The notes beneath the pieces are model-generated. The model was not told the DNA's origin, searched no databases, and saw only the letters and a list, made by a program, of their open reading frames with translations. A stretch of DNA of 64,000 nucleotides from Caulobacter ginsengisoli (GTDB taxonomy: Bacteria; Pseudomonadota; Alphaproteobacteria; Caulobacterales; Caulobacteraceae): assembly GCF_030814835.1 (NCBI RefSeq), contig NZ_JAUSVS010000006.1, positions 186,001-250,000 of the forward strand. The letters are read 5' to 3'. Made by a program: the position numbers and the translations under genes. The stretch's first letter is position 1; each line of letters begins with the position of its first letter. Of the stretch, positions 10,101 through 59,091 are shown in pieces.

Positions 10101-10268
10101 CCGCCTTCGGCGGGGAGGAAGAGGAGTTTTAGAGGAGAAGAGTGAGCGGCCGGGCCATCCTTGAAGCGCCGCAGGCATTCCATTCGAAGGACAGCCTGCG
10201 GCGCTCTGCTGGGAAGTCGCTGTCGCTCGCTCTTCTCCTCTAAAACTCCTCTTCCTCCCGCGAAGCGG
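10101..10268. repeat. intergenic inverted repeat, family B copy 1
   Basis: A 28-base arm (10115-10142, GAGGAAGAGGAGTTTTAGAG...) is perfectly complementary to 10230-10257. Each arm is flanked outside by its own small hairpin (CCGCC-TTC-GGCGG at 10101-10113; CCGC-GAA-GCGG at 10258-10268). An inner 11-base stem GCGCCGCAGGC (10166-10176) / GCCTGCGGCGC (10194-10204) encloses the core TGTCCTTC (on the minus strand). The inner stem and core recur, in opposite orientation, in the copy at 39307-39472. It fills most of the 292-base gap between alkB and the hydrolase gene and contains no gene. Confidence 0.9.
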
Positions 10269-11308: not shown

Positions 11309-12409
11309 TTGCGTTTTCCACGCATGCTCATCGAGGCGGAGTCGCCCGAACAGCTCGGCTACGACAAGATCAAGTTCAACCTGACCGAATCCTCGCTGCG
11401 GGACCGCACCCTGGCGGAACTGGGCCTGGACCTGAACGACCAGATCCTCTGCTACACCGATCACCTGGGCCTGCCGCCCCTGCGCGAGGCGATCGCGGCG
11501 CGGGCCGGGATGCAGAGTGGCGAGGTGCTGCTGACCGCGGGCGCCGCGGCGGCCCTGTTCATCGTGGCGGTCACCCTGCTGGATCGCGGCGACCACATGA
11601 TCGTGGTGCGGCCCAACTACGCCACCAACATCGAGACCCCGCGCATCCTGGGCTGCCAGGTCGAATGCCTGGACCTGAAGTTCGAGGACGGCTTTGCGCT
11701 GGACCTGGCGCGGCTCGAGACGATGATCACGCCCAAGACCAGGCTGATCAGCCTGACCACGCCGCATAACCCCACCGGCGTGGCGCTGTCGGCGGCCACC
11801 TTGCGGGCCGTCGCGGCGATGGCCGAGCGCCATGACGTGCATGTGCTGGTCGACGAGACCTATCGCGACATGTCCTTCGTGGAAAAGCCGCCGGTGGCCG
11901 CGACGCTCAGCGAGCGGCTGATCAGCGTCTCGTCCCTGTCGAAGAGCTATGGCATTCCCGGCATCCGCCTGGGCTGGATCGTCAGCCGCGACCGGGGGCT
12001 GAACTACCGCTTCCTGTGCGCCAAGGAGCAGATCGGCATCTGCGGCAGCGTGGTCGACGAGGCCATCGGCCTGGCCGCCTACAGCCAGGCCGACGCCTGG
12101 ATGGCCAGCGTCCAGGCCCCGCTCAAGGCGGCGTTCGACAGCGTGGCGGCCTGGATCGCCGCCGAGCCCATGCTGGAATGGGTGGAGCCGTCGGGCGGCT
12201 GCGTCTGCTTCCCGCGCATCGTCGGCGAGGTCGACATGGCGGTCTTCTACGCGACCTTGAACGACATCCACGGCTGCTATGTCGGGCCGGGGCACTGGTT
12301 CGAGCAGGACGACCGGTATTTCCGGCTGGGCTACGGCTGGCCGCTGCCGGCGGAGCTGGCGGGGGGGCTGAAGGCGATCTCGGCGTCGTTGCGGAAGGCG
12401 GCCCTCTAA
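11309..12409 (+). CDS. PLP-dependent aminotransferase, class I/II
   Basis: The 366-residue product is a fold-type I PLP enzyme. Cofactor motifs are TPHNPTGVALS, the aspartate-tyrosine pair in VLVDETYRDMS, and the Schiff-base lysine in SSLSKSYGIPGIRLGW. A TTG at 11309 is the likely start because AGAGGGGG lies 8 bases upstream; the first ATG (11324) is too far from it. The substrate cannot be told from sequence; the short N terminus and the SLSKSYGIPG motif recall capreomycidine-synthase-like and related aminotransferases of unknown role. It converges on dnaA across a family A element that overlaps its stop codon. Confidence 0.88.
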   Translation: MRFPRMLIEAESPEQLGYDKIKFNLTESSLRDRTLAELGLDLNDQILCYTDHLGLPPLREAIAARAGMQSGEVLLTAGAAAALFIVAVTLLDRGDHMIVVRPNYATNIETPRILGCQVECLDLKFEDGFALDLARLETMITPKTRLISLTTPHNPTGVALSAATLRAVAAMAERHDVHVLVDETYRDMSFVEKPPVAATLSERLISVSSLSKSYGIPGIRLGWIVSRDRGLNYRFLCAKEQIGICGSVVDEAIGLAAYSQADAWMASVQAPLKAAFDSVAAWIAAEPMLEWVEPSGGCVCFPRIVGEVDMAVFYATLNDIHGCYVGPGHWFEQDDRYFRLGYGWPLPAELAGGLKAISASLRKAAL

Positions 12410-12588
12410 ATCCTCACCCGGAGGGGGAGGGGGACCATGCGGAGCATGGTGGAGGGGGTCCGTGTGACTTCCAGGGTTCAAAAAAGGGCGCGGCGGATCG
12501 GCTGAGGACTCAAGCCAAGCGTGGGAACCACACCGACCCCCTCCACCACCGCTGCGCGGCGGTCCCCCTCCCCCTCCGGGTGAGGATT
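12409..12588. repeat. intergenic inverted repeat, family A copy 1
   Basis: Left arm 12409-12460 and right arm from about 12536 to 12588 form an outer stem (AATCCTCACCCGG... / ...CCGGGTGAGGATT, about 28 bp, perfect) and an inner stem (GGTGGAGGGGGTC / GACCCCCTCCACC). Between them lie two opposed self-complementary hairpins, ACCATGC-GGA-GCATGGT on the left and a CCGC-TGC-GCGG hairpin on the right. The core holds a GACTC (GANTC) site near 12507. It fills the convergent gap between the aminotransferase and dnaA genes and overlaps both stop codons, so it may also act as a two-way terminator. Confidence 0.9.
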
Positions 12589-14026
12589 AGCCGCGTAATT
12601 TCCGCGCCAGGGCCTCGAGATCCCGCGCCAGCTGCGCGTCCCCGGCCTTCAGTTCCTCGATCCGCCGCACCGCGTGCAGCACCGTCGTATGGTCCCGGCC
12701 GCCAAACCGCCGGCCGATATCGGGCAGCGAGCGGGTCGTCAGCTGCTTCGCCAGCCACATGGCCGCCTGTCTGGGCCGGGCGATGGAGCGGTTGCGGCGT
12801 TCGCTGATCAGGTCGGCCTGCTTGAGGCCGAAATGCTCGGAGGTGGCCTTCTGGATGTCGTCGATGGTGATGCGCTTTTCGGCGCCGCGCAGGTGGGGGC
12901 GCAGGATGGCCTGGGCTTCGTCCAGCGAGAGCCTGGAAACCCCGACCCCGGCGCGGGCGACCAGGGTGTTGAGGGCCCCTTCCAGCTCGCGGACACTGTC
13001 GGTGAAGCGGTCGGCCAGGAACTGCAGCACTTCGGGCCGGGCGGTGGCGGCGAAGCCCTGCTGGCGGCCGAGGGTGTCGAGCTTCTTTTCCAGGATGCCG
13101 AGCCGCAGGTCGCGGTCGGCCGGCTCGATGCCGCAGACCAGGCCCGCCGACAGGTGGCTGCGCAGGCGGGCGTCGATCTCGGTGATGGCGCTGGGCGGCC
13201 GGTCGGTGGAGAACACCACCCGGCGGCCGTCCTCCATCAGGGCGGTCAGGGTGTGGAACAGCTCTTCCTGCGTGGACTGCTTGCCGCCGACGAAGTGGAC
13301 GTCGTCGATCAAGAGCAGGTCGGCGTCGCGCAGCTCTTCCTTGAAGGCGGTGGTGGCGCGGTCCATCACCGCCCGCACGAAGGTCGACAGGAAGCGCTCG
13401 GCGCTCAGATAGACCACCTTGCGGGTCGGCTGGGTGCGCATGGCCTCCCAGGCCATGGCGTTCATCAGGTGGGTCTTGCCGAAGCCGTAGGAGCTGTGGA
13501 TCACCACCGGGTTGAAGTGACCGTCGGCCCAGCTGGCCACGCGCTTGGCCACCGCATAGGCGAACTCGTTGGCCGGTCCCACCACGAAGGTGTCGAAGGT
13601 GAAGCGCTCCTGCAGCCCGCCCAGGGCGGCGCTGCGGCCGCGGCCGGCGGCGGGGGCCGCGTCGGTGGAGACGGGATCGGCGATTTCCAGCGGCGAGACG
13701 ACGACGGCCGGGCTCGCGGAAGAGGCCGGACCAGCCTCGGCCTCGAACTCCATGCGCGACTTGAGGTCCAGGTGACGGCCCTGCGGGTCGTTCTGGGCCC
13801 ACAGCTCGGCGATGCGGCGCCAAGCGTTGCGGCGAATCCAGTCGCGGGCGACGCCCGTGGGGGTGACCAGCACCAGGGCGCCGGCGGCGCCCTCGCGCAG
13901 GGCCGCTTGGCTCAGCCAGGAACCGAAATCAGCCTCACCCAGCTCACGACGCAGGGCCGAACAGGCCTTGGTCCAAACGGTGTCGGCTGGCGTCAGCTCA
14001 GGCATGCCTTGAGCGCCCCTTGTCAT
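12587..14026 (-). CDS. dnaA: chromosomal replication initiator protein DnaA
   Basis: The 479-residue product binds DnaA boxes at the origin and loads the replicative helicase. Domain I (WTKACSALRRELGEADFGSW) is followed by a linker, the AAA+ domain and the C-terminal DNA-binding helix-turn-helix (FGGRDHTTVLHAVRRI). Walker B is LLLIDDVHFVGGK. In Walker A the usual first glycine is Ser178 (S-S-Y-G-F-G-K-T, residues 178-185), an unusual change. Two adjacent ATGs occur; the one at 14026 has AGGGG 6 bases upstream and is preferred over 14029. Longer in-frame starts lie inside the leader. Confidence 0.97.
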   Translation of the reverse strand: MTRGAQGMPELTPADTVWTKACSALRRELGEADFGSWLSQAALREGAAGALVLVTPTGVARDWIRRNAWRRIAELWAQNDPQGRHLDLKSRMEFEAEAGPASSASPAVVVSPLEIADPVSTDAAPAAGRGRSAALGGLQERFTFDTFVVGPANEFAYAVAKRVASWADGHFNPVVIHSSYGFGKTHLMNAMAWEAMRTQPTRKVVYLSAERFLSTFVRAVMDRATTAFKEELRDADLLLIDDVHFVGGKQSTQEELFHTLTALMEDGRRVVFSTDRPPSAITEIDARLRSHLSAGLVCGIEPADRDLRLGILEKKLDTLGRQQGFAATARPEVLQFLADRFTDSVRELEGALNTLVARAGVGVSRLSLDEAQAILRPHLRGAEKRITIDDIQKATSEHFGLKQADLISERRNRSIARPRQAAMWLAKQLTTRSLPDIGRRFGGRDHTTVLHAVRRIEELKAGDAQLARDLEALARKLRG

Positions 14027-18165: not shown

Positions 18166-18309
18166 TTCACCACGAACAACACGAACAACACGAACGGGTC
18201 GGCGCTAGCCCAGCTCTGACCCGAAGGGTCTGTTTGATAGATCGGGCCTTCGGCCGGGAGGACGCGTTTGGCTCCGTCTGTTCGTGTTGTTCGTGTTGTT
18301 CGTGGTGAA
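18166..18309. repeat. intergenic inverted repeat, family C copy 1
   Basis: A 30-base arm at 18166-18195 (TTCACCACGAACAACACGAA...) is perfectly complementary to 18280-18309. Each arm is itself made of tandem nonamers, ACGAACAAC on the left and GTTGTTCGT on the right. The core of 84 bases includes a hairpin (CGGGCCTTCGGCCGG region near 18243). The second copy, 39231-39547, has the unit ACGAACCAC with matching changes in the other arm. It lies between LytTR and mutM genes of the same strand. Confidence 0.92.
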
Positions 18310-22133: not shown

Positions 22134-22256
22134 CCGCTCATCCCCGCGAAAGCGGGGACCCAGGCGTTTTTCGTTTCAGCCTTCCAACCGCTCACCCCCG
22201 CCCGATCGCCCCGAACAGTAAAAAGCCTGGGTCCCCGCTTTCGCGGGGATGAGCGG
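22134..22256. repeat. intergenic inverted repeat, family F
   Basis: A 32-base arm (22134-22165) is perfectly complementary to 22225-22256. The arm contains the self-complementary CCCCGC-GAAA-GCGGGG and ends in ACCCAGGC. This CCCCGCGAAAGCGGGGACCC motif is common in intergenic spaces of Caulobacterales and sphingomonads. It fills the convergent gap between ubiB and the lipoprotein gene and could serve as a bidirectional terminator (the loop side carries TTTTT and AAAAA). Confidence 0.9.
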
Positions 22257-24801: not shown

Positions 24802-26046
24802 ATGATTCGCGTCACAGTCGATCTTTTGGCCCGGAAACTCGCCGAACGGGCGAGTATTGGCGGCGGTCGCGTCTTTATCCAGGGCGGTGCGGCAGAACCG
24901 CTACAGCTGCTGGAGATTTTCCAGCGCGAACCGGACCTGGCGGCCGGGCTGACCTTCGTCGGGGCGCTGGTCCCGGGGGTGAACCGCCGGGACTGGGCCG
25001 CTTGCGGGGCGCGGTCGGAGGGGACGTTCGCCTCGGCCGACTGGCGGGCCAGTTTCGAAGCCGGCCGTTTCACCCTGCGGCCGCAGACCTGGTTCCAGAC
25101 CTTTGGCTGGTTGGCCCAGACGCCGCTGGACGCGGTGATGATGCAGGTCTCGCCCCCGGACGAGGGCGGGACGTGCTCGCTGGGCGTCGCCGCGGACATG
25201 GCCCCGGCGGTGATGGACCGCGCCGTTTTCAAGGCGGGCCTGATCAACCCGGCCATGCCGCGCACCCAGGGGCCTTCGATCCCGCTGGCGGCCTTCGATG
25301 TGGTCGCCGAGACCGACGCCCCGCTGCTGACCTATGACGCCGGCGGACTGGACCCGGCCTTCGCGGTGATCGCCGGCAGGATCGCCGAGCTGATCCCCGA
25401 CGGCGGGGTGCTGCAGTTCGGGGTCGGCAAGGTGGGGGTCGCGGCCCTGGCCGGGCTGGCGGGGCGGCGGGGGCTGAAGATCCATTCCGGCATGGTCACC
25501 GAGCCGCTGCTGGACGCGCTCGACGGCGGGGTGCTGGACGAAGTGCTGACCGGCATGGCGATGGGGACGGACGCCCTCTACCGGCGGTGTGGCGAGGACC
25601 GCCGCATCCGGTTCGCCCCGTCGAGCTTCACCCACGATGTGCGGGTGTTGGCGGCGATCCCGAAGCTGGTGGCGATCAACTCCTCGCTGGAGGTCGACCT
25701 GTTCGGCCAGGCCAATGCGGAGTTCATGGGCGGGCGGCAGATTTCCGGGATCGGCGGGCTGACCGATTTCCTGCGCGGGGCAAGGCTGTCGGAGGGCGGG
25801 GTCCCGATCGTCGCCCTGGCGGCGACGGCCAAGGGCGGGAGTCTGAGCCGGATCGTGCCCCGGCTGGAGATGAATGCGGTGTCCGTGCCTCGCGCGGACC
25901 TGGCGGTGGTGGTGACGGAGTTCGGGACGGCCGACCTGCGGGGGCTGACGCTCGAGGGGCGGGCCCAGGCGCTGATCGGGGTGGCGGCGCCGCAGCATCG
26001 CGACGGGCTCGAGGCGGCCTGGGTGGAGATGCGGCGGGGGATGTAG
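24802..26046 (+). CDS. acetyl-CoA hydrolase/CoA-transferase family protein
   Basis: The 414-residue product is a family I CoA-transferase fold of the acetyl-CoA hydrolase/4-hydroxybutyrate CoA-transferase group. The second domain shows LQFGVGKVGVAALAGL, KIHSGMVTEPLLDAL and INSSLEVDLFGQANAEFM, which holds the likely catalytic glutamate, then GGLTDFLRGARLSEGG. The first domain is shorter and more diverged than in characterised enzymes (about 430-500 residues), so substrate is uncertain. It stands alone between the dut region and the family G repeat. No clear Shine-Dalgarno precedes the ATG. Confidence 0.85.
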   Translation: MIRVTVDLLARKLAERASIGGGRVFIQGGAAEPLQLLEIFQREPDLAAGLTFVGALVPGVNRRDWAACGARSEGTFASADWRASFEAGRFTLRPQTWFQTFGWLAQTPLDAVMMQVSPPDEGGTCSLGVAADMAPAVMDRAVFKAGLINPAMPRTQGPSIPLAAFDVVAETDAPLLTYDAGGLDPAFAVIAGRIAELIPDGGVLQFGVGKVGVAALAGLAGRRGLKIHSGMVTEPLLDALDGGVLDEVLTGMAMGTDALYRRCGEDRRIRFAPSSFTHDVRVLAAIPKLVAINSSLEVDLFGQANAEFMGGRQISGIGGLTDFLRGARLSEGGVPIVALAATAKGGSLSRIVPRLEMNAVSVPRADLAVVVTEFGTADLRGLTLEGRAQALIGVAAPQHRDGLEAAWVEMRRGM

Positions 26047-26058
26047 AAAGTCAAAAAG

Positions 26059-26215
26059 CCCTTCCCCCGCTGGCGGGGGAAGTGGGCCGACAGCGAAGCT
26101 GGAGGCTCGTTGGGGGCCCTTACCCACGGTGGGAATATCCGCCAACGCCGCAAGGACCCCCAACGACCTTCGATGCTGCGCATCTCAGGCCACTTCCCCC
26201 GCCAGCGGGGGAAGG
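26059..26215. repeat. intergenic inverted repeat, family G
   Basis: Arms CCTTCCCCCGCTGGCGGGGG... (26059-26083) and its exact 25-base complement (26191-26215) form the outer stem. Inside it lie opposed hairpins CAGC-GAA-GCTG (near 26090) and GATGC-TGC-GCATC (near 26171), then an inner stem CGTTGGGG/CCCCAACG and a core of about 40 bases. The right arm overlaps the 3' end of mobA and supplies its stop codon. It closes the convergent gap after the acetyl-CoA hydrolase gene. Confidence 0.88.
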
Positions 26216-26721
26216 TCTTCTGGCCTGTTCACGTTCCGAAATGCCCGCTCGTTCTCGAACAGCAGCTGCGCCCCACCCAGCCGCGCCTGCAGATCTTGGA
26301 TGGACGGGTGGCCGGCGGCCAGTTCGGCTGTGATGGCGTCCAGCAGATCGACCGACCACAGCGCGCAGAGCGGCTGAGACCCATCGACCGTACGGGCTGA
26401 GACGACGCGTGCATCGACAGCCGCCAGGCAAGGGACGAGGTCGGCCGGAACCCTCGGCACATCGCAGGGCAGGGTGGCCAGGCGGCTCGCCCCGATCTCC
26501 CGAGCCCAGATCAGCCCCGCCTTGACCCCCGACAGCGGCCCATCCGGATCTCCCGGCGCGTCGGCCAACCCGCCGGGCCCACTCACCGCCAGCGCCATGC
26601 AGTGCGGCCGCAACGCGTCCAGCGCCCAGTCCAGCAGCGGCCGGCCGTCCAGCAGCGCCGCCGCCTTGTCCGAGCCGAAGCGGCTGGACCTTCCCCCGGC
26701 CAGGACGAGGCCGGCGATCAT
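26185..26721 (-). CDS. mobA: molybdenum cofactor guanylyltransferase MobA
   Basis: The 178-residue product transfers GMP to molybdopterin to form the guanine-dinucleotide cofactor. The N-terminal nucleotide-binding signature GLVLAGGRSSRFGSDKA and the metal motif LPCDVPRVPADL are clear. The gene overlaps fdhF by four bases (ATGA), so it is the last gene of the fdhD-fdhF-mobA operon and presumably supplies the cofactor for that enzyme. The last residues (DLPPLAGEVA) and the stop codon are encoded by the arm of the family G repeat, so the original C terminus has been replaced or extended. Confidence 0.92.
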   Translation of the reverse strand: MIAGLVLAGGRSSRFGSDKAAALLDGRPLLDWALDALRPHCMALAVSGPGGLADAPGDPDGPLSGVKAGLIWAREIGASRLATLPCDVPRVPADLVPCLAAVDARVVSARTVDGSQPLCALWSVDLLDAITAELAAGHPSIQDLQARLGGAQLLFENERAFRNVNRPEDLPPLAGEVA

Positions 26722-29859: not shown

Positions 29860-30047
29860 CCCCTCCTCCTCGATGGAGGAGGGGCAGGGGTGGTGGTGTG
29901 CGCTCGGTGTCAGGGGAAGGGTGCGGGGTGGCGACCACGCCTCCCTGAGCGCTTCCGGAAACGCTGTGCCACCATCACCATCCCCGCCCTTCCTCAGCCT
30001 GCCCTCGGGCGGGCCGGGCGAGGCCCGACCCGGGGGAGGAGGAAGGG
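29860..30047. repeat. intergenic inverted repeat, family D copy 1
   Basis: The left arm is a hairpin (CCCCTCCTCC-TCGAT-GGAGGAGGGG) followed by GCAGGGGTGGTGGTG; the right arm is CACCATCACCATCCCCGC then CCCTTCCTC ... GAGGAGGAAGGG. The core shares GCTTCCGGAAACGC with the copy at 42971-43125. In this copy the right terminal hairpin is enlarged by an extra GC-rich palindrome (TCGGGC...GCCCGA, about 30008-30028). It occupies most of the 291-base divergent gap between fdhD and the PepSY gene. Confidence 0.85.
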
Positions 30048-37630: not shown

Positions 37631-38239
37631 TCACTCGTCAGGCGCGACCGGCTTGTCGCCGACATGCAGGGCCTCCGCCTCGCCGGCGCTCTTCATGATC
37701 AACGGCACCTGGCTGAAGGAGAACAGCAGCGCCAGGACCTGCAGGCCGGGAAAGCGGAAGAAGGTCCAGGTGGTGTCGCTCTGTGTGCGCCAGACCACCT
37801 CGTTGAGCGCGGCGACGAACAGGAAATACAGGCCATAGCGCAGGGTCAGGGTCCGCCAGCCGGCGTCGGTCAGGTGCAGGGCCTCGCCGATCAGATGCTT
37901 GAGCGGGTTGCGCTTCAGCACCGTGCCGCCCAGCAGAAAGACGGCGAAGGCCAGGTTGATGATGGTCGGCTTGACCTTCAGGAACCGGGTGTCGTGGAAG
38001 ATGAGGGTCAGGCCCCCGAACACCAGGGCCGCCCCGCCGGCCAGCAGCGGCATGGTCGCCAGCCGCTTTTCGAAGACGAAGCCGACGATGAGGCCAATGG
38101 CGCTGCCGGCCACCAGCCACCAGGTGGCCTCCATCAGGTTCCGGTGGATCAGAAAGCCGATCAGGAAGAGGACAAGGCCGCCGTAGTCGACGGCCGGGCG
38201 GACCCATTTGGGATTCTTGCGGGGTTCCACGGTCGCCAT
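37631..38239 (-). CDS. yciB: inner membrane protein YciB/septation protein A
   Basis: The 202-residue product has five to six membrane helices and matches the YciB/IspZ family: VRPAVDYGGLVLFLIGFL, KPTIINLAFAVFLLGGTVL and RYGLYFLFVAALNEVVWR. Family members interact with cell-elongation and division proteins in E. coli and Shigella. The start (ATG 38239 or GTG 38242) overlaps the ftsY stop codon, so it is translationally coupled to ftsY. The tail is soluble (AEALHVGDKPVAPDE). Confidence 0.93.
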   Translation of the reverse strand: MATVEPRKNPKWVRPAVDYGGLVLFLIGFLIHRNLMEATWWLVAGSAIGLIVGFVFEKRLATMPLLAGGAALVFGGLTLIFHDTRFLKVKPTIINLAFAVFLLGGTVLKRNPLKHLIGEALHLTDAGWRTLTLRYGLYFLFVAALNEVVWRTQSDTTWTFFRFPGLQVLALLFSFSQVPLIMKSAGEAEALHVGDKPVAPDE

Positions 38240-39168
38240 CACGCCTCCAGCCCAACCAGCGAACGCGAAAAGGCCCGCGCGTCGAAAGGTTGCAGATCCT
38301 CGATGCCTTCGCCGACCCCGATCAGCTTGATCGGTGAGTCCGAGGCCTGGGCCACCGGCACCAGCACCCCGCCCCGGGCGGTGCCGTCCAGCTTGGTCAT
38401 CACGATGCCGGAGACCCCGATCTGGTTGCCGAACATGTTTTCCTGGGCGAGCGCATTGCGCCCGACCGTGGCGTCGAGGACCAGCAGGGTCTCGTGCGGG
38501 GCGTCGGGATCGATCTTCTTGACCACCCGGATGACTTTCAGGAGCTCGTCCATCAGGCCCTGCTTGTTCTGCAGCCGCCCGGCGGTGTCGATCAGCACCA
38601 CGTCATAACCCTCGGCCCGGCCCTTCTCGATGGCGTCATAGGCCAGGCCGGCGGCGTCCGCCCCGGTCGGCCTGGACATGAAGTCGGCCCCGGCCCGGTC
38701 GGCCCAGATCTTCAGCTGCTCGACGGCGGCGGCCCGGAAGGTGTCGCCGGCCGCTATGAGGACCTTGGCGCCCTTGCCGGTCAGGTCGGCGGCGATCTTG
38801 CCCAGGGTGGTGGTCTTGCCCGAGCCGTTGACCCCGATGAACAGCACCACATAGGGCTTGGGGCCGGCGAGGGGGTCGAACTCGCCCTGGCGGGGGATCA
38901 GCTCCTTGGCCACCGCCTCGGCCAGGGCCTCCTTGACCTCGTCCTCGGAGGCCGACTTGCCGAACCGCGCCTCGCCGAAGGCCTTGGTGATCCGCGCGGC
39001 GGCATGGGGGCCCAGGTCCGCCTCGATCAGCATTTCCTCGAGGGCGTCGAGCTGTTCCTGGTCGAGCGGCTTGCGGAAGATCTCCGCCACCTGCTCGGTC
39101 ATCGCCTTGGACGAGCGGGAGAGACCGCTGGTCAGCCGCTGGAACCAGCCTTGTTTCTGTTCTGCCAT
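38239..39168 (-). CDS. ftsY: signal recognition particle receptor FtsY
   Basis: The 309-residue product is the SRP receptor GTPase directing ribosome-nascent chains to the Sec translocon. The N domain begins near residue 20; the G domain has VNGSGKTTTLGKIA (P loop), VLIDTAGRLQNKQGL (G3), the I-box region and TKLDGTARGGVLVP (G4). The long acidic A domain of E. coli FtsY is absent, which is normal in alphaproteobacteria. It heads an operon with yciB. Its upstream space holds a nested pair of inverted repeats. Confidence 0.97.
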   Translation of the reverse strand: MAEQKQGWFQRLTSGLSRSSKAMTEQVAEIFRKPLDQEQLDALEEMLIEADLGPHAAARITKAFGEARFGKSASEDEVKEALAEAVAKELIPRQGEFDPLAGPKPYVVLFIGVNGSGKTTTLGKIAADLTGKGAKVLIAAGDTFRAAAVEQLKIWADRAGADFMSRPTGADAAGLAYDAIEKGRAEGYDVVLIDTAGRLQNKQGLMDELLKVIRVVKKIDPDAPHETLLVLDATVGRNALAQENMFGNQIGVSGIVMTKLDGTARGGVLVPVAQASDSPIKLIGVGEGIEDLQPFDARAFSRSLVGLEA

Positions 39169-39230
39169 GGGCGGCCTTTAGCCTGCCGGCCTCGCGGCGT
39201 CACCCTTTGCGCGGCGCGGGAGAGATTTTG

Positions 39231-39547
39231 TCCACGAACCACACGAACCACACGAACGGGTGGGCGTGACGGTTTGCGCTTTGCGGCGGGTTCGGCTTGA
39301 AAGAATGCCGCTTCGCGGGAAGGAAGAGAAGTTTAAGGGAAGAAGAGCAAGCGATAGCGGCATCGCTGGATGCGCCGCAGGCTGTCCTTCCGATTTGATC
39401 GCCTGCGGCGCTTCGGGGTTGCCCCTACCCCTTGCTCTTCTTCGCTTCCTTATCTTCCTGTCGCGAAGCGACCCAAAACCCACGCCTGACCGAGTCACGG
39501 CGTCGGCGGACCCAGCCCCCGTTCGTGTGGTTCGTGTGGTTCGTGGA
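39231..39547. repeat. intergenic inverted repeat, family C copy 2, interrupted by family B copy 2
   Basis: A 30-base arm at 39231-39260 (TCCACGAACCACACGAACCA...) is perfectly complementary to 39518-39547. The tandem unit here is ACGAACCAC/GTGGTTCGT, against ACGAACAAC/GTTGTTCGT in the copy at 18166-18309, so two base pairs have changed on both sides. The space between arms (257 bases) is far longer than in copy 1 (84 bases) because a complete family B element (39307-39472) lies inside. The 414-base divergent gap 39169-39582 between ftsY and the TRIC gene holds little else; their promoters must lie in or beside it. Confidence 0.9.
39307..39472. repeat. intergenic inverted repeat, family B copy 2 (nested)
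   Basis: Terminal hairpins CCGC-TTC-GCGG (left) and GTCGC-GAA-GCGAC (right) flank arms AGGAAGAGAAGTTTAAGGGA... and their imperfect complement. The inner stem GCGCCGCAGGC (39372-39382) / GCCTGCGGCGC (39401-39411) and core TGTCCTTC are the same as in copy 1 (10101-10268) but in opposite orientation. The arms are less perfect than in copy 1. The element lies wholly within the family C element. Confidence 0.88.
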
Positions 39548-39582
39548 CTCCCTTCTTCTCGCAGGCGCGCTAGACAGCACCC

Positions 39583-40215
39583 ATGAGCGTCATCGACACC
39601 GCCATCCTGGTCCTCGACTACGCCGCCGTGGCCGTGTTCGGCGCCACCGGGGCGCTGGCGGCGGCGCGGCGCAAGCATGACATCGTCACCTTCGCCTTCT
39701 TCTCGGCGGTGACCGGGGTGGGCGGCGGCACGCTGCGGGACCTGTTGATCGGGGCGCCGGTGATCTGGGTGCAGCGGCCGGGCTATCTGCTGGTCTGCCT
39801 GGCGGCGGCGGTCGTGGTCTGGCTGACCGGGCGGCGGACCTGGCGGTTCTCGGCGCTGCTGTGGCTGGATGCGCTGGGCATGGCCGCCTACGCGGTGGTC
39901 GGGGCGGCCAAGGCGCTGGGGCTGGGCGTGCATCCCATCGCGGCGGCGGTGATGGGGGTGCTGACGGCCTGTTTCGGCGGGGTGATCCGCGACGTGCTGG
40001 CGAACGAGCCCTCGGTGCTGCTGCGGCGGGAGATCTATGTCAGCGCGGCCCTGCTGGGGGCGGCGGTGTTTGTCGGCCTGGCGAGCCTGGGCGTCGACCA
40101 GCTCCTGGCCGGCGGCATCGGGTTCGCGGTGGCGCTGGGCGTGCGGGCCGGGGCCATCTTGTTTGGCTGGTCGCTGCCGGGCTTTCCGGGGCCGGAGGAG
40201 GAAGACCGCCCCTGA
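39583..40215 (+). CDS. trimeric intracellular cation (TRIC)-type channel family protein
   Basis: The 210-residue membrane protein has seven hydrophobic helices in two repeated halves (the UPF0126/YicG family, prokaryotic relatives of TRIC channels). Each half has a glycine-rich kink: AVTGVGGGTLRDLLIG and TACFGGVIRDVLANE. The latter is the strongest family signature. It probably forms a trimeric cation-permeable pore in the inner membrane. It stands alone, divergent from ftsY. Confidence 0.9.
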   Translation: MSVIDTAILVLDYAAVAVFGATGALAAARRKHDIVTFAFFSAVTGVGGGTLRDLLIGAPVIWVQRPGYLLVCLAAAVVVWLTGRRTWRFSALLWLDALGMAAYAVVGAAKALGLGVHPIAAAVMGVLTACFGGVIRDVLANEPSVLLRREIYVSAALLGAAVFVGLASLGVDQLLAGGIGFAVALGVRAGAILFGWSLPGFPGPEEEDRP

Positions 40216-42871: not shown

Positions 42872-42970
42872 GATCCAAACGCAAGCGGGCGGCCAACGCG
42901 GCCGCCCTTGGCGCGGGCTATAGCAAACTTTGGGCGGAAGGGCGACGCCTCGGCGCTGGTGGTTTCTCAC

Positions 42971-43125
42971 CACCCTTCCTCCTCGATGGAGGAAGGGCAG
43001 GGTTGGTGGTGTGCCCTCGGGATATGGGTGACTGGCTCAGGGTGGCGTGGTCGCCTCCCCGCGTGCTTCCGGAAACGCACTGCCACCACCACCATCCCCG
43101 CCCTTCCTCCATCGAGGAGGAAGGG
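42971..43125. repeat. intergenic inverted repeat, family D copy 2
   Basis: The left arm is the hairpin CCCTTCCTCC-TCGAT-GGAGGAAGGG then GCAGGGTTGGTGGTG; the right arm is CACCACCATCCCCGC then CCCTTCCTCC-ATCGA-GGAGGAAGGG. Relative to copy 1 (29860-30047) one stem position has changed T-A to C-G on both sides. The core GCTTCCGGAAACGC is shared. It fills the 265-base gap between mtaB and the S9 peptidase gene, same strand. Confidence 0.88.
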
Positions 43126-43136
43126 AGAAGAGGGAG

Positions 43137-45179: not shown

Positions 45180-45249
45180 GCGGATACTCCCCCGAGGAAC
45201 TGTCAGGCGGGGGACTTTAGCGGGGGATTTGCGGAAGGAAACTCCACAA

Positions 45250-45430
45250 ATTCTCCCCCGGAGGGGGAGGGGGACCATGCGGAGCATGGTGGAGGGGGTC
45301 AGACGCTACATCCAGGCGTCAGGATAGGGCGCAGCCGATAAGCCGCGGGCTTGCCGGCAGAAGTGGTTGTAGCTTCAACCCCCTCCACCACCCCTTCGGG
45401 GCGGTCCCCCTCCCCCTCCGGGTGAGGATT
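45250..45430. repeat. intergenic inverted repeat, family A copy 2
   Basis: The outer stem, the left hairpin ACCATGC-GGA-GCATGGT and the inner stem are as in copy 1; the right hairpin is CCCC-TTC-GGGG. A further inner pairing GCTACA...CCA / TGG...TGTAGC joins the core ends. The core CATCCAGGCGTCAGGATAGG is shared with copies 4 and 5. It lies between the S9 peptidase and dapF genes on the same strand. Confidence 0.9.
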
Positions 45431-45438
45431 TTCCCGAG

Positions 45439-46263
45439 CTACAGCCTGCCCGCGAACTCGACCTCGACCGGGCCGGTCATGATCACGTGGTTGTCGCTCT
45501 CGCGCCACTCGATGACCAACTCGCCGCCGTCCATTTCCAGGGTGGCCTTGCGGTTCACGAAGCCCCGGCGATGGGCCGCCACCAGGGCCGCGCAGGCGCC
45601 CGTGCCGCAGGCTCTCGTCAGGCCGGCGCCGCGCTCCCAGACCCGCAGGCGGATACGGTCTCGGCTCTTGATCTGGGCAAACCCGACATTGACCCCTTCC
45701 GGGAACAGCGGGTGGTGCTCGATCAGGCTGCCGGCTTCGCGGACCGGGGCGGTCTCGGCGTCGTCGACGAAGAAGACCACGTGCGGGTTGCCCATGTTGA
45801 CGGCGCCCGGGGTGTGCAGGTGCGGATCGTCGATGGGGCCGACCTGCAGCTCGATATTGCGGGTGTCCATCTCGTTCTCGAGCGGGATCTGGTCCCAGCG
45901 CAGCCGGGGCTCGCCCATGTCGACGCTGATCAGGGTCTCCCCGGCTCTCGTGGCGCTGAGCGTGCCGGCCACGGTCTCGATGGTGACGGCTTCGCGCCCC
46001 GAGGCCTGCATGGTCAGCCAGGCCACGCAGCGGGTGGCGTTGCCGCAGGCCTCGACCTGGCCGCCGTCGGCGTTCCAGATGCGCATGAAGGCGTCGGCGG
46101 TGGCGGAGGGCTCGATGGCGATCAGCTGGTCGCAGCCTATGCCGCCGTCGCGGGCGGCGATGGCGCGCGCCTCCTCCACCGTCGGCGCGAACGGCTGGCT
46201 GCGGGCCTCGACCACGACAAAGTCGTTGCCGGCCCCGTTCATCTTCAGGAACGGACGGCTCAT
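45439..46263 (-). CDS. dapF: diaminopimelate epimerase
   Basis: The 274-residue product interconverts LL- and meso-diaminopimelate for lysine and peptidoglycan synthesis. Both catalytic cysteines are visible: EACGNATRCVAW and ACGTGACAALVA. The N terminus LKMNGAGNDFVVVEA and substrate motifs MGNPHVVFFVDD and GVNVGFAQI are typical. ATG 46263 gives MSRPFLKMNG. It lies upstream of the S9 peptidase and mtaB genes on the same strand, separated by repeats. Confidence 0.97.
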   Translation of the reverse strand: MSRPFLKMNGAGNDFVVVEARSQPFAPTVEEARAIAARDGGIGCDQLIAIEPSATADAFMRIWNADGGQVEACGNATRCVAWLTMQASGREAVTIETVAGTLSATRAGETLISVDMGEPRLRWDQIPLENEMDTRNIELQVGPIDDPHLHTPGAVNMGNPHVVFFVDDAETAPVREAGSLIEHHPLFPEGVNVGFAQIKSRDRIRLRVWERGAGLTRACGTGACAALVAAHRRGFVNRKATLEMDGGELVIEWRESDNHVIMTGPVEVEFAGRL

Positions 46264-48483: not shown

Positions 48484-50613
48484 ATGCGTTCGTATCTACT
48501 CGCCGCCATCATGACCGCCGCCACGCTCACCGGAGCCGCCGCTCCCGCCGCCAGCTCAGACGATCCCTTCACCTGGATGGAGGAGATCGAGGGGACCCGC
48601 GCCCTCGACTGGGCCCGGGCCGAGAATGCCCGCTCGCTGCCGGTGCTGCAGAACGATCCGCGCTACCAGGGCTTCCTCGACGAGGCCCTGAAGATCGTCA
48701 ACGCCAAGGACCGCATCCCGGCGGTGGCCTTCTCCGGGCCCGGCGAGCGTGAATTGCGAAATTACTGGCAGGACCCCGACCATGTGCGGGGCCTGTGGCG
48801 GCGCACGACGATGGAGAGCTATCGGACCGCCGAGCCTCAATGGGAGACCATCCTCGACGTCGACACCCTGGCCAAGGAAGAGAAGGCCAACTGGGTGTGG
48901 GAAGGCTCCAACTGCCTGGCTCCCGACTATACCCGCTGCCTGGTCACCCTGTCGGACGGCGGCAAGGATGCGGTGTCGTTCCGCGAGTTCGACACCGTCA
49001 CCAAGAGCTTCGTGAAGGACGGCTTTACCGCGCCCGAAGGCAAGCAGAACTACAGCTGGCTGGACAAGGACACCGTGCTGATCGCCCGGGACTGGGGCGA
49101 GGACACCAAAGCGGGAGGAGGGGGCCAGCCGACCCTGACCAAGTCCAGCTATCCCTATGTGCTGAAGGCCTGGAAGCGCGGCACGCCGCTGTCGTCGGCG
49201 ACCGAAGTGTTCCGGGGCACGGTGGACGACGTGGCGGTGCAGCCCTTCGTGTTGCGCGACGCCGACGGCAAGGTCGCCGCGGTGATGGCGACGCGGGCGG
49301 TCAGCTTCTTCGAGGCGGAATACTACCTGATCGAGGGCGGCAAAACGGTGAAGCTGCCCTTCCCGCTGAAGTCCTCGGTGCAGGGCCTGGTCAAGGGCCG
49401 GCTGGTGTTCACCCTGGAACAGGACTGGCCGGAGAAGAACCTCAAGCAGGGCGACCTGGCCGAGTACGACCTCGCCGCCCTGAAGGCCGATGCGGCCAGG
49501 GCGGCGCCCAGGCTGGTTCTGCGGCCGACCGGGCGCCAGGCCATCGAGGGCATTACCACGACCCGCAACACCCTGGTCCTGGCCCTCTATGAGAACGTCA
49601 AGGGCAAGGCGCTGGTGATGAGCCCCTCAGGCGAGGGCTGGACGACCAGGACCCTGGACCTGCCGGCCAACGCCTCGGTCAGCCTGGGATCGGCCTCGGA
49701 CCAGACCGACCGCTTCTTCGTTTCGGTGGAGAGCTATCTGACCCCGACCACCCTGTGGCTGGCCGACGGGGCCAGGGACACGGTCGAGCAGGTCAAGACC
49801 CTGCCGCCCAAGTTCGACGCCTCCAAGGACGAGGTCGAGCAGTTCGAGGCGGTGTCCAGCGACGGGACGAAAATCCCGTATTTCGTCGTCCACCCCAAGG
49901 GCATGAAGCTGGACGGCGCCAACCCCACCCTCCTCTATGCCTATGGCGGCTTCCAGGTCTCGATGACCCCGGGCTATTCGGCCACCATCGGCAAGCTGTG
50001 GCTGGAGCGCGGCGGGGTCTATGTGGTGGCCAATATCCGCGGCGGCGGCGAGTTCGGGCCAGCCTGGCACAATGCGGGCCTGAAGGAGCATCGCCAGCTG
50101 GTCTATGACGACTTCTTCGCCGTCTCCCGCGACCTGATCGCCCGCAAGATCACCTCGCCCCGGCGGCTGGGGATCATGGGCGGGTCGAATGGCGGCTTGC
50201 TGATGGGCGTGGCCCTGACCCAGCATCCGGAGCTCTACAACGCCATCGTCATCCAGGTGCCGCTGTTCGACATGATCCGCTACACCCAGATCGGCGCCGG
50301 CGCTTCCTGGGTCGGCGAATATGGCGACCCGGCCATCCCGGCCGAGCGGGCCTGGATCGAAAAATACAGCCCCTACCAGAACCTGCGGGCCGGCATGCCC
50401 TATCCGGAAGTCTATATCGAGACCTCGACCAAGGACGACCGCGTCCACCCCGCCCACGCCCGTAAGGCGGCGGCCCGGCTGGAGGCGTTGGGATATAAGT
50501 TCCTCTATTACGAGAACATCGACGGCGGCCACGCCGCGGCGGCCAACCTCAACGAGAAGGCGCGGCGGGTGGCGTTGGAGTATGCGTATCTCAGCCAGAA
50601 GCTGATGGACTGA
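48484..50613 (+). CDS. prolyl oligopeptidase family serine peptidase (paralogue 2)
   Basis: The 709-residue product has a signal peptide (MRSYLLAAIMTAATLTGAAAPAAS) and the same S9A architecture as the gene before it: DPFTWMEEIEGTRALDWARA start, catalytic serine in MGGSNGGLLMGVAL (about 567), aspartate in TKDDRVHPAHAR (about 651), histidine in IDGGHAAAAN (about 684). It has an extra Gly-rich loop (KAGGGGQPTLTKSS) in the propeller. The tandem arrangement with a 6-base gap implies one operon from a duplication. Confidence 0.93.
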   Translation: MRSYLLAAIMTAATLTGAAAPAASSDDPFTWMEEIEGTRALDWARAENARSLPVLQNDPRYQGFLDEALKIVNAKDRIPAVAFSGPGERELRNYWQDPDHVRGLWRRTTMESYRTAEPQWETILDVDTLAKEEKANWVWEGSNCLAPDYTRCLVTLSDGGKDAVSFREFDTVTKSFVKDGFTAPEGKQNYSWLDKDTVLIARDWGEDTKAGGGGQPTLTKSSYPYVLKAWKRGTPLSSATEVFRGTVDDVAVQPFVLRDADGKVAAVMATRAVSFFEAEYYLIEGGKTVKLPFPLKSSVQGLVKGRLVFTLEQDWPEKNLKQGDLAEYDLAALKADAARAAPRLVLRPTGRQAIEGITTTRNTLVLALYENVKGKALVMSPSGEGWTTRTLDLPANASVSLGSASDQTDRFFVSVESYLTPTTLWLADGARDTVEQVKTLPPKFDASKDEVEQFEAVSSDGTKIPYFVVHPKGMKLDGANPTLLYAYGGFQVSMTPGYSATIGKLWLERGGVYVVANIRGGGEFGPAWHNAGLKEHRQLVYDDFFAVSRDLIARKITSPRRLGIMGGSNGGLLMGVALTQHPELYNAIVIQVPLFDMIRYTQIGAGASWVGEYGDPAIPAERAWIEKYSPYQNLRAGMPYPEVYIETSTKDDRVHPAHARKAAARLEALGYKFLYYENIDGGHAAAANLNEKARRVALEYAYLSQKLMD

Positions 50614-50633
50614 GGCTAAGACGCCCCCTCCTT

Positions 50634-50819
50634 CAAATCCTCACCCGGAGGGGGAGGGGGACCGCGCCGAAGGCGTGGTGGAGGGGGTCAGCCACTACAT
50701 CCACGCCTGGAGGTTCCCTCGGCCGACCCGCCGCGTTCTATCCTGACGCCTGCATGTAGGCTCAAACCCCCTCCACCATGCTCCGCATGGTCCCCCTCCC
50801 CCTCCGGGGGAGGATTTGA
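50634..50819. repeat. intergenic inverted repeat, family A copy 3 (reverse orientation)
   Basis: The element is inverted relative to the other copies: the ATGC-TCC-GCAT hairpin is on the right and the variable hairpin (GCGCC-GAA-GGCGT) on the left. The core reads TATCCTGACGCCTG on the plus strand, the complement of the other cores. Outer stem CAAATCCTCACCCGG/CCGGGGGAGGATTTG. It fills the convergent gap between the second peptidase and mmcB. Confidence 0.9.
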
Positions 50820-50824
50820 GGACC

Positions 50825-51265
50825 TCAGAACATCGCGCTTCGCATCGCCGCCAGCCGCCCGAACGCAATCGTCAACGCCTTGCGCCGCGCCCCGACCAGC
50901 GGGGTGTGGGGCGCTTCCCGCAGCACCGCCCCGCCAAAGCCGTCGGCGACGATCAGGCCGGGTTCCTCCGGCAGCAGGTCACGCGGGAAGTGGGGGGCGA
51001 CGGCGAAGAAGAAGCGGTCGCAGTAGGGCAGGTATTCCCCCCACTTGCGGTCGGTCAGGTAGTCCTCGGCGCTCGACTTGACCTCGACGATGGCGATCTC
51101 GCCGCGCGGGCCCAGGCACATCAGGTCGGCCCGCCGCCCGTTCGGCAGCCCGACCTCAGCCACCGGCGCATAGCCCAGGTCCAGCATCAGCCGCCCGGCG
51201 CCCCGGGTGACCGACAGGGTGGTCTCCGGGCGCGAGATGGTGACGAGGGTGAGGACGGCCTCCAT
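50825..51265 (-). CDS. mmcB: MmcB family DNA repair protein
   Basis: The 146-residue product matches MmcB, a damage-inducible protein of alphaproteobacteria with a PD-(D/E)XK nuclease-like core: RRADLMCLGPRGEIAIVEVK (Asp and ExK) and a DRKWGEYLPYCDRFFFAVAP segment. ATG 51265 gives MEAVLTLVTISRPE. A LexA box lies 12 bases upstream of the start, so the gene should be SOS-repressed, as mmcB is in Caulobacter. The precise biochemical role is not established. Confidence 0.9.
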   Translation of the reverse strand: MEAVLTLVTISRPETTLSVTRGAGRLMLDLGYAPVAEVGLPNGRRADLMCLGPRGEIAIVEVKSSAEDYLTDRKWGEYLPYCDRFFFAVAPHFPRDLLPEEPGLIVADGFGGAVLREAPHTPLVGARRKALTIAFGRLAAMRSAMF

Positions 51266-53835: not shown

Positions 53836-53886
53836 TATATGGGTTAAGGGTCAATGAAAAAGGTGACGAGGGCGTCATTTTGACTT

Positions 53887-54065
53887 TCCTCACCCGGAGG
53901 GGGAGGGGGACCATGCGGAGCATGGTGGAAGGGGGTTTGAGCTACATCCAGGCGTCAGGATAGGGCGCGGCGGATCGGCTGAGATACGCTGGATCGAGGT
54001 GGATGTAGGGGTTGACCCCCTCCACCACCGCTTCGCGGCGGTCCCCCTCCCCCTCCGGGGGAGGA
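53887..54065. repeat. intergenic inverted repeat, family A copy 4
   Basis: Outer stem TCCTCACCCGG.../...CCGGGGGAGGA (one mismatch), left hairpin ACCATGC-GGA-GCATGGT, right hairpin CCGC-TTC-GCGG, inner stem with one extra A on the left, and a perfect nine-base inner pairing CTACATCCA/TGGATGTAG. The core shares CAGGCGTCAGGATAGG with copies 2 and 5. It lies between the diiron and ptsN genes, same strand. Confidence 0.9.
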
Positions 54066-54070
54066 TCAGC

Positions 54071-54535
54071 CTACGCCGCGGTCGACCGCGCTTCCCGCAC
54101 CAGCAGCGCATGGATGGCGTCCGCCGTCCGCGCCTGGCGCAGCTGCTGGCGCAGTTCCGGCTGGCGCAGGCGGCGGGAGACGCTGGCCAGGGCGCGCAGG
54201 TGTTCGGAGCCGCCGGTTTCGGGGGCCAGCAGGGCCAGCAGCAGGTCGACCGGCTGGTCGTCCACCGCCTCGAAGGCCGTGGGGGTGTCGAGCTTGACGA
54301 AGACGGCCTTCATGCCGCTCAGGCCCGGGATGCGGGCGTGCGGCACGGCGACGCCGTGGCCCAGGCCTGTCGAGCCCGCGGACTCCCGCTCGAGAAGCGC
54401 GTCCAGCACCACGGCCGCCTCCAGGCCGTAGCTGCGGGCGGCGACGTCGGCGATGACGCCCAGGATCTGTCGCTTGGAGCCGCCGCTGACATGCGGGGCT
54501 ATGGCGCGCAAATCCAACAAGTCACCGATCAGCAT
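54071..54535 (-). CDS. ptsN: nitrogen-regulatory PTS protein EIIA(Ntr)
   Basis: The 154-residue product is EIIA-Ntr, the terminal phosphoacceptor of the nitrogen PTS and a regulator of potassium, nitrogen and stringent responses. The active His lies in GLGHGVAVPHARIPGL. DDQPVDLLLALLAPE and HLRALASVSRRLR are further family signatures. It lies in the classic rpoN-hpf-ptsN order, on the same strand. Confidence 0.94.
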   Translation of the reverse strand: MLIGDLLDLRAIAPHVSGGSKRQILGVIADVAARSYGLEAAVVLDALLERESAGSTGLGHGVAVPHARIPGLSGMKAVFVKLDTPTAFEAVDDQPVDLLLALLAPETGGSEHLRALASVSRRLRQPELRQQLRQARTADAIHALLVREARSTAA

Positions 54536-57647: not shown

Positions 57648-58148
57648 ATGAAGCCGCCAGAACCGACCCCAGGTCTGCCCGAGAGGGTGGACGGCTCGGC
57701 TTCCAATGGTCCGCATAAGGTCCGTTGGCAGCGAAGCATCCCCTCAAGGCTGTGGCTCGACATCCCTGTCGTCCTGCTCCTCGGCGCTGCATACGCCTAC
57801 CAATATTTGAGCGTCGGGGATGTGCGCAGAGGCGCCATCGCCGGCGTCATCGGAGCCCTACTTGGCGTGGTTTTGGTGGTCACCGGTATGGTCCTAAATC
57901 ACCTGCTGAGCAAAGGCGGTGAACGCGGGCGGGCGTTCATCCTCGAAGCCAGGAATCGTCTGGTTCGATTCCTGGCGGGCCTGGCTTTGGGTGTCCTCGC
58001 CTTCCTGGGGCTGCACTGGCTGCTGATCGGAACCGAGACGCCGTCCAGCCTGGGCGGCCAGCTGCTGTTCGCGGCGGTCCTCGTCGGCGGCGGCTTTGGG
58101 TTAGCCTTCTTCGACCTGATCGGATCGCGGCGGCGGCCCCGCCCCTGA
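57648..58148 (+). CDS. membrane protein of unknown function
   Basis: The 166-residue product has a soluble proline-rich N terminus and four hydrophobic helices (LWLDIPVVLLLGAAYAYQYL, AGVIGALLGVVLVVTGMVL, FLAGLALGVLAFLGLHWLLI, LLFAAVLVGGGFGLAFFDLI). ATG 57648 has AGGGG 9 bases upstream. I recognise no family. It lies on the opposite strand between rpoN and lptB, which are neighbours in most alphaproteobacteria, and its stop codon runs into a family A repeat. Both facts suggest a later insertion. Codon use at its 5' end is slightly less GC-rich than the flanks. Confidence 0.75.
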   Translation: MKPPEPTPGLPERVDGSASNGPHKVRWQRSIPSRLWLDIPVVLLLGAAYAYQYLSVGDVRRGAIAGVIGALLGVVLVVTGMVLNHLLSKGGERGRAFILEARNRLVRFLAGLALGVLAFLGLHWLLIGTETPSSLGGQLLFAAVLVGGGFGLAFFDLIGSRRRPRP

Positions 58149-58329
58149 ATCCTCCCCCGGAGGGGGAGGGGGACCATGCGGAGCATGGTGGAGGGGGTCT
58201 GACGCTACATCCAGGCGTCAGGATTGGGCGCAGCCGATAAGCCGCGTTCCCGCGTGCAGAAGTGGTTGTAGTTTCAACCCCCTCCACCACCCCTTCGGGG
58301 CGGTCCCCCTCCCCCTCCGGGGGAGGATT
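58148..58329. repeat. intergenic inverted repeat, family A copy 5
   Basis: Outer stem AATCCTCCCCCGG/CCGGGGGAGGATT is perfect; left hairpin ACCATGC-GGA-GCATGGT; right hairpin CCCC-TTC-GGGG; inner stem GGTGGAGGGGGT/ACCCCCTCCACC. The core is almost the same as that of copy 2, so these two are the closest pair. It fills the convergent gap between the unknown membrane protein gene and lptB. Confidence 0.9.
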
Positions 58330-58338
58330 TGAAGGAAG

Positions 58339-59091
58339 CTAGTACCGGTCGCCCAGATAGACCCGCCGCACTTCCGGGTTGTCCGTAATCTCCTTCGGCG
58401 CGCCCTCGAACAGCACTTCGCCGCCGGCGATGATCGAGGCGCGGTCGATGATCTCCAGGGTCTCGCGGACATTGTGGTCGGTGATCAGGATGCCGATGCC
58501 GCGGCCCTTGAGGTAGGCGATGACGTCGCGGATGTCCTGGATGGCCAGGGGGTCGATGCCGGCGAAGGGCTCGTCCAGCAGCATGAAGCTGGGCTCGCTG
58601 GCCAGGGCCCGGGCGATTTCCACCCGCCGCCGCTCGCCGCCCGACAGCGAGATGGCCGGGGCGGCCCGCAGATGAGCGATGTGCAGCTCTTCCAGCAGGG
58701 CGGTGACGGTGTCGCGGGCCTTGTCGCGGTTCTTCTCGCGCAGCTCGACCACGGCCAGGACGTTCTGCTCGACCGTCATGCCGCGGAAGATCGAGGCTTC
58801 CTGCGGCAGATAGCCGACCCCCATCCGGGCCCGCTGGAACATCGGCAGGGCGGTGATGTCGGCGCCGTCCAGGCTGATCCTGCCGTAGTCGGCCGGGATC
58901 AGGCCGGTGATCATGTAGAAGCAGGTGGTCTTGCCCGCCCCGTTGGGGCCCAGCAGGCCGGCCACCTCGCCGCGCTTGAGGCGCAGGGAGACATTCTTGA
59001 CGACATGGCGGTCGCCAAAGGCCTTGCCGATCCGCTCGACCACAAGGCCTTCGTCAGCCAGAACCGGTTTGTCGGTTACCGCCGCGTCCAT
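58339..59091 (-). CDS. lptB: LPS export ABC transporter ATP-binding protein LptB
   Basis: The 250-residue product is the ATPase of the LptB2FGC complex that moves lipopolysaccharide from the inner membrane. Walker A GPNGAGKTTCF, the Q-loop region VGYLPQEASIFRGM, the signature LSGGERRRVEIARAL, Walker B FMLLDEPFAGIDP and the switch His in ITDHNVRETL are all present. It is the last gene of lptC-lptA-lptB. Confidence 0.97.
   Translation of the reverse strand: MDAAVTDKPVLADEGLVVERIGKAFGDRHVVKNVSLRLKRGEVAGLLGPNGAGKTTCFYMITGLIPADYGRISLDGADITALPMFQRARMGVGYLPQEASIFRGMTVEQNVLAVVELREKNRDKARDTVTALLEELHIAHLRAAPAISLSGGERRRVEIARALASEPSFMLLDEPFAGIDPLAIQDIRDVIAYLKGRGIGILITDHNVRETLEIIDRASIIAGGEVLFEGAPKEITDNPEVRRVYLGDRY

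Follow-up and report, generated by a model that had tools for sequence, protein, structure and literature searches.

A palindromic repeat within a palindromic repeat upstream of ftsY in Caulobacter ginsengisoli, and its relation to GxxExxY genes carried between inverted arms

The window analysed here, a stretch of 64,000 nucleotides from the genome of Caulobacter ginsengisoli, contains between two divergent genes a structure (39230-39548) in which a hairpin of one repeat family, B, lies in the loop of a hairpin of another, C. The features of this region, together with further copies of both families in the window, are listed below.

10113..10259, plus strand: family B copy not enclosed in a family C element
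18166..18309, plus strand: family C copy 1, without B; arms 18166-18195 and 18280-18309, with 84 nt between them
38239..39168, minus strand: ftsY-type gene (SRP54 GTPase), divergent left neighbour
39230..39260, plus strand: left arm of family C copy 2; a terminal GTC, then three CACGAAC units spaced 9 nt
39308..39473 (about), plus strand: gene-less hairpin of family B, placed centrally in the C loop
39369..39389, minus strand: part of B aligning with the final GxxExxY codons of locus L122
39369..39414, no strand assigned: central palindrome of B, GATGCGCCGCAGGC / GCCTGCGGCGCTTC, 93% complementary
39518..39548, minus strand: right arm of family C copy 2, a perfect reverse complement of the left arm
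39583..40215, plus strand: PF03458 gene, divergent right neighbour

The arms of family C copy 2 are 100% complementary and 257 nt apart, as an earlier note on this DNA had stated, but each is 31 nt long rather than 30; the 84-nt spacing that it gave for copy 1 was measured at the same value. The earlier note also placed a complete family B element between the arms, and a B-type hairpin is indeed found there, with the feet CCGCTTCGCGG on the left and GTCGCGAAGCGAC on the right, but it is imperfect, its left end lacking the GTGGG present in most other B copies. The 329-nt strand folds with z scores of -12.3 (DNA) and -13.6 (RNA), and no shuffle out of 100 folded equally well. Genome-wide the arm pattern is matched 105 times, versus once for a reversed control pattern; the window structure is far from chance. 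Family C copy 1 aligns with 10 further places in the genome, most of which have identical borders, and the genome stretches examined hold 28 places with C-type arms and 26 scored B copies. Further palindromes of other sequence lie in the window at 26038-26237, 22134-22256 and 29860-29950 / 42966-43132, and perhaps represent more hairpin-element families.

The sole gene seen inside such arms, in the stretches of this genome examined, is a GxxExxY gene (PF13366). That CACGAA-type arms flank GxxExxY genes was suspected beforehand and then tested. Among 61 sampled genomes of the genus, GxxExxY occurs in one, the present genome (G000), in two copies, and C-type arms occur in two, with 53 matches in this genome and 2 in G044. 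The first gene (in locus L122, 143 aa) lies between B-type arms, at about L122:1444 to 1911, and the second (L121, 133 aa) stops some 40 bp short of a family C element, beside rather than inside it. Both pass the cut-offs of TIGR04256 (130.7 and 129.6 bits vs 35) and PF13366 (130.1 and 132.4 bits vs 22), and the two proteins are 36% identical.

Family B is a shortened form of this gene-bearing element. Each of the 11 short B copies can be aligned to the left end of L122, along the arm, past the stop and into the last codons of the gene, the identity being 64-77% over 64-86 columns. In the window copy the left part aligns with the arm of L122 (GGGAAGGAAGAGAAG...), and the stretch at 39369-39389 is out of frame by the motif used, K-D-[GS]-L-R-R, which was fixed after some B copies had been read by eye; the motif is in frame in four other short copies, the same four among all 26, compared to 0.1% of shuffles. 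Once the arms are set aside, single short copies resemble the gene weakly, 0 to 23 of 100 shuffles doing as well, and in three of the 11, including the window copy, the best gene match falls elsewhere in the gene. Each of the 15 long copies has a match to the gene at 1596-1623 that was equalled by 0-2 of 100 shuffles; since these copies are interrelated, their matches count as few events. Several of the long copies (C18:13762, C7:227962, C16:29318, C10:93103, C5:280644, C15:34553 and C10:43881 of G000) have sequence in common beyond the limits of B, in some cases inverted, as though it belonged to a larger repeat. For family C, 34 tests of the interiors of 17 copies lacking B against both GxxExxY genes gave no clear similarity, three of them having 1-3 of 60 shuffles as good.

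GxxExxY is a predicted PD-(D/E)XK nuclease. In the AlphaFold2 model of a relative, L221, built with 57 sequences (pLDDT 93), helices and strands follow the order expected for the PD-(D/E)XK core, and the residues of the D...ExK signature, D80, E90 and K92, are invariant in 57/57 sequences. The nearest solved structure is SSO0001 (4ic1), a Cas4, with a Z of 9.7 and an rmsd of 3.2 over 98 residues; archaeal Hjc (1gef) follows the model with an rmsd of 3.0 over 85 residues at a Z of 7.4, a range in which the score may mean merely a common arrangement. Foldseek alone returned no match to the model at E <= 0.001, and a sequence profile found no solved structure at E <= 1.

The arrangement of gene and arms is found far beyond this genus. 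The best 80 GxxExxY matches of a collection scan span Alphaproteobacteria, Bacteroidetes, Planctomycetota, Chloroflexi, Acidobacteria, Methanosarcinales and others, archaea thus included, and an inverted-repeat score was computed by comparing the 300 bp on either side of the gene, which was possible at 76 of the 80. A score of at least 40 was reached at 43/76 of these loci versus 0/467 shifted windows, and a score of at least 30 at 64/76 versus 5/467. Within the class, 27 of 30 loci were scored, three short ones being dropped; 13 of them reached at least 39, and no shuffle exceeded 35. In the 49 loci with a score of at least 38 the outer arm edges span 435-762 bp (median 496), and in 41 of the 49 the two arms of a locus are a closer match than is the right arm of any other locus, a test biased towards the own pair because the right arm was defined by its alignment to the left.

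The arms of these loci are built of iterated units, for example CACAGAG, CGCAAAG, CACGAAG and CACCAAG, which can be summarized as CRCNRAG and often follow ACC. The arms of family C have the same layout, with CACGAAC repeated every 9 nt after TTCAC or TTGTC; the B arms are not made of CRCNRAG units. Three units in the right sense lie beside the gene at 65/80 loci, compared with 6/80 for a control pattern; opposite-sense units occur nearby at 20/80, and 15/80 have no unit arm on either side. In the remainder of the same 80 loci (668,505 bases) there are 67 unit matches versus 4 for the control, and 21 inverted pairs without a gene, so that gene-less copies stand beside the gene-bearing form across phyla. 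Because the pattern was read off loci that were later scored with it, a cleaner test is provided by the inverted-repeat score and by 12 later loci from viral and plasmid collections. Eight of these 12, two of them apparently one sequence, score at least 40, a count that comes without control windows, and the triple pattern fits 3/12.

GxxExxY does not resemble a usual phage or plasmid gene in its distribution, as one protein query found it in 0/50,697 phage records and 7/72,556 plasmid records, and five loci are from viral contigs (alignment A3). In the class, PF13366 is present in 20/289 genomes and the C-type arm pattern in 6/289. Three of these six (G000, G163 and G140) have GxxExxY, the C-type match of G140 lying about 54 bp before its gene, and the other three have a single match and no gene. 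A generic unit pattern matches in 43/289 genomes, mostly as single CGCCAAG-type matches that resemble GC-rich coding sequence. Of the genomes with at least four matches, G223 and G163 have GxxExxY, and G169 (34 matches) and G261 (4 matches) do not, even at E <= 1. Arms can therefore exist without the gene, or another gene serves them: in G169 and G261 either the gene was lost or some other gene acts on the arms.

The closest known kind of element is the rRNA IVS with its S23/IVP ORF. The 23S rRNA IVS is described, in part of one account, as an inverted-repeat stem that has tandem heptamers and carries an ORF in its loop, and that replaces a hairpin loop (PMC4990558). The GxxExxY elements are alike in the inverted-repeat stem, the small ORF in the loop, which L122 and 43/76 of the best-match loci have, and the heptamers beside the arm. 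They differ in that they encode a predicted PD-(D/E)XK nuclease, lie, at the sites read, in intergenic DNA rather than in rRNA helices, and have many gene-less copies. No IVP gene (PF05635) was matched in the present genome. In the class, the IVP genes at L259-L272 and L274-L278 (19 of 20 matches, one below the cut-off being omitted) lie between iterated inverted arms of their own, whose units are unlike those of GxxExxY, with 12/19 scoring at least 38. DUF559 genes of relatives are likewise found in inverted arms: 19 of 20 loci were taken, and of the 18 that could be scored 12 reached at least 40. The shifted windows described above are the only matched control for the inverted-repeat score, so that the IVP and DUF559 counts, like that of the 12 later loci, stand without one. 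In the window, palindromic repeats of the CCCCCTCC type lie at 12386-12600, 45226-45440, 50613-50830, 53862-54075 and 58125-58340. By blastn they match stretches beside a DUF559 gene at 8/20 loci of relatives, and they are probably gene-less DUF559 hairpin elements.

Likenesses to other small repeats are partial. REP/REPIN sequences with RAYT (TnpA-REP) are described, in the part of the literature drawn on here, as a single small gene accompanied by palindromes that match it and by numerous copies lacking the gene, and the GxxExxY elements likewise combine a small gene, palindromes and gene-less copies. RAYT is an HUH enzyme. According to a portion of PMC3733652, a GTAG or CGTC tag is typical of most REPs; unlike these, the feet of the C palindromes have no GTAG (0/23 copies). 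Bacterial MITEs, as part of PMC10969869 presents them, are 50-500 bp long, have inverted ends, are mostly intergenic and are shortened from a gene-bearing parent. The present repeats share the small size, the inverted ends, the intergenic position and, probably, a gene-bearing parent, and they differ from a MITE of a DDE transposon in that no target duplication was found for C and the gene seen between such arms is not a known transposase. The CcrM site is GANTC, and the Caulobacter CIR are named for CcrM; unlike CIR, most C and B copies lack this site, which is present in 8/23 and 6/26, respectively. B and C are like CIR in being intergenic repeats of an alphaproteobacterium, which is how CIR appear in the same portion of PMC10969869.

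These comparisons bear on whether the arms could have been moved by a different agent, such as replication slippage, a RAYT or IS enzyme or another hairpin-gene family, with GxxExxY being a passenger or a selfish user of arms. The arms without GxxExxY in G169 and G261 fit that explanation, as do the IVP and DUF559 genes, whose own inverted arms show that more than one protein comes with this architecture. Against it, arm sequence follows gene family: CRCNRAG units occur at 9/14 class GxxExxY loci (those with strong matches and full flanks among 28, besides the two of G000) versus 0/19 IVP and 0/18 DUF559 loci, and these units accompany the GxxExxY gene. Furthermore, the GTAG tag is missing from the feet of C, and in the only sampled member of the genus that bears GxxExxY both genes are in or beside the repeats. 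We consider a different mover unlikely.

The earlier note had read the window copy as an insertion of one palindromic element into another and as direct evidence that B moves. In its simplest form, this would make B and C two small transposons with no relation to each other, of which B jumped into the C copy at ftsY. That B and C are each also found alone is consistent with this, and means that one entered the other at some time; the ftsY gaps of 19 relatives, compared by reading, are likewise without the element. These relatives proved too diverged for the target site, or the junctions of the window copy, to be aligned with them. Set against simple nesting, the combined structure recurs at five places, all within this genome, which goes part of the way towards the composite unit that the earlier note had named as the alternative. 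Besides the window copy, C6:67854, C6:159641, C15:71063 and C6:88102, the last missing its right arm, are C elements containing B, and two of the four align with the window copy from end to end at 75-77%. In the four two-armed composites B lies near the centre of the loop, 35-41 nt from the left arm of C and 35-42 nt from the right, with the left border of the window B set by analogy in this measure.

Moreover, the C-side flanks of B are common to several composites. In 45 pairwise comparisons of these flanks, six gave p < 0.02 where about one would be expected. For four pairs (71063-left/88102-left, 159641-right/71063-left, 159641-right/88102-left and 67854-left/71063-right) 0/300 shuffles were as good, and window-right against 67854-left gave a p of 0.003. 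One flank is thus common to 71063-left, 88102-left and 159641-right, and some of the flanks also resemble the outer sequence of B copies that lie outside C. Five composites, some with common flanks, indicate that the composite was copied at least partly as a unit, and the window copy taken alone is therefore not direct evidence of B insertion. What stands of the earlier reading is at least one entry of B into a loop of C, after which composites were copied. B and C do not look unrelated either, because each of the two GxxExxY genes in this genome is linked to one of these families, and simple nesting of unrelated elements at ftsY is improbable. Two other arrangements were observed. At L095 (G000:C7:165863-166061) the arms of two C-type elements interlock in the order 1L 2L 1R 2R, which simple nesting cannot produce, and in G163 outward-facing CTTCGTG/CACGAAG palindromes lie within the loops of CACAGAG-type hairpins (L285, L286, L287 and L289).

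The ends of family C are sharp. For 23 of the 28 C places, half, doubled and interlocked ones being omitted, the palindrome ends after TTCAC or TTGTC; further out, pairing falls to the level of mismatched copies. The earlier note had pointed to the junctions as a place to look for target duplication; no direct repeat of at least 5 nt was found at matching offset in any of the 23 copies, and direct repeats at any offset were at the level of shuffles. For the gene-bearing element, a pair of sites was found between fabD and fabG. In Sphingomonas parapaucimobilis a GxxExxY gene lies between these two genes, which are 464 nt apart, and the distance from fabD to the start of fabG is 32 nt in S. paeninsulae, where the fabG start is unannotated and reads alike, and 30 nt in Rhizobium indigoferae. 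These are the occupied and the empty site of the element. A candidate empty site at family C copy 1 was rejected, its two sides matching separate places in relatives.

It is very improbable that the palindromes are immobile terminators or RNA-processing hairpins, held by selection and with arms corrected by template switching, as the strong RNA hairpin and the within-locus arm matches (41/49, with the right arm chosen by its match to the left) might suggest, because the window copy stands between divergent genes, where no terminator is expected, the structure was not seen in the ftsY gaps of the 19 relatives, B copies contain relics of a gene, and a whole gene-bearing element is found inside an operon.

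The explanation that we favour, and regard as probable, is that B and C are gene-less versions derived from hairpin elements which, when complete, carry a GxxExxY gene between inverted arms, and that such elements may insert into loops. The full element would be about 435-760 bp long and consist of one GxxExxY gene and two inverted arms of iterated short units. The arms would fold to a hairpin in single-stranded DNA (or RNA), on which GxxExxY may act both in cis and in trans; hairpins would be copied through the folded strand, and new copies would prefer the loops of existing hairpins. B in C would then represent one loop insertion that was afterwards copied as a composite. The composites, few in number and related to one another, do not suffice to prove loop targeting.

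More tentatively, and with the doubt outweighing the confidence, these elements could belong to a domain-wide class of mobile DNA hairpins, each moved by a single small nuclease of the Cas4/Hjc fold group through arm cutting and loop insertion, without a transposase or target duplication. GxxExxY, IVP and DUF559 would then form three branches, each with its own arm code, and their gene-less offspring would account for much of the anonymous palindromic repeats of prokaryotes, in this genome families A, B and C. In the open-access papers searched, we found nothing on hairpin elements of GxxExxY/PF13366, three papers that mention the family having titles on other topics, no match for DUF559 with inverted repeats and none for the six repeat strings.

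On this interpretation an orphan nuclease family of bacteria and archaea, GxxExxY, would gain a testable role, and a common class of intergenic palindromes would gain a parent, the two coming under a shared explanation. Three gene families would be joined in one architecture, a gene in a hairpin accompanied by gene-less copies, and where palindromes are found nested in a genome, as upstream of ftsY, they may be the trace of an insertion into a hairpin loop.
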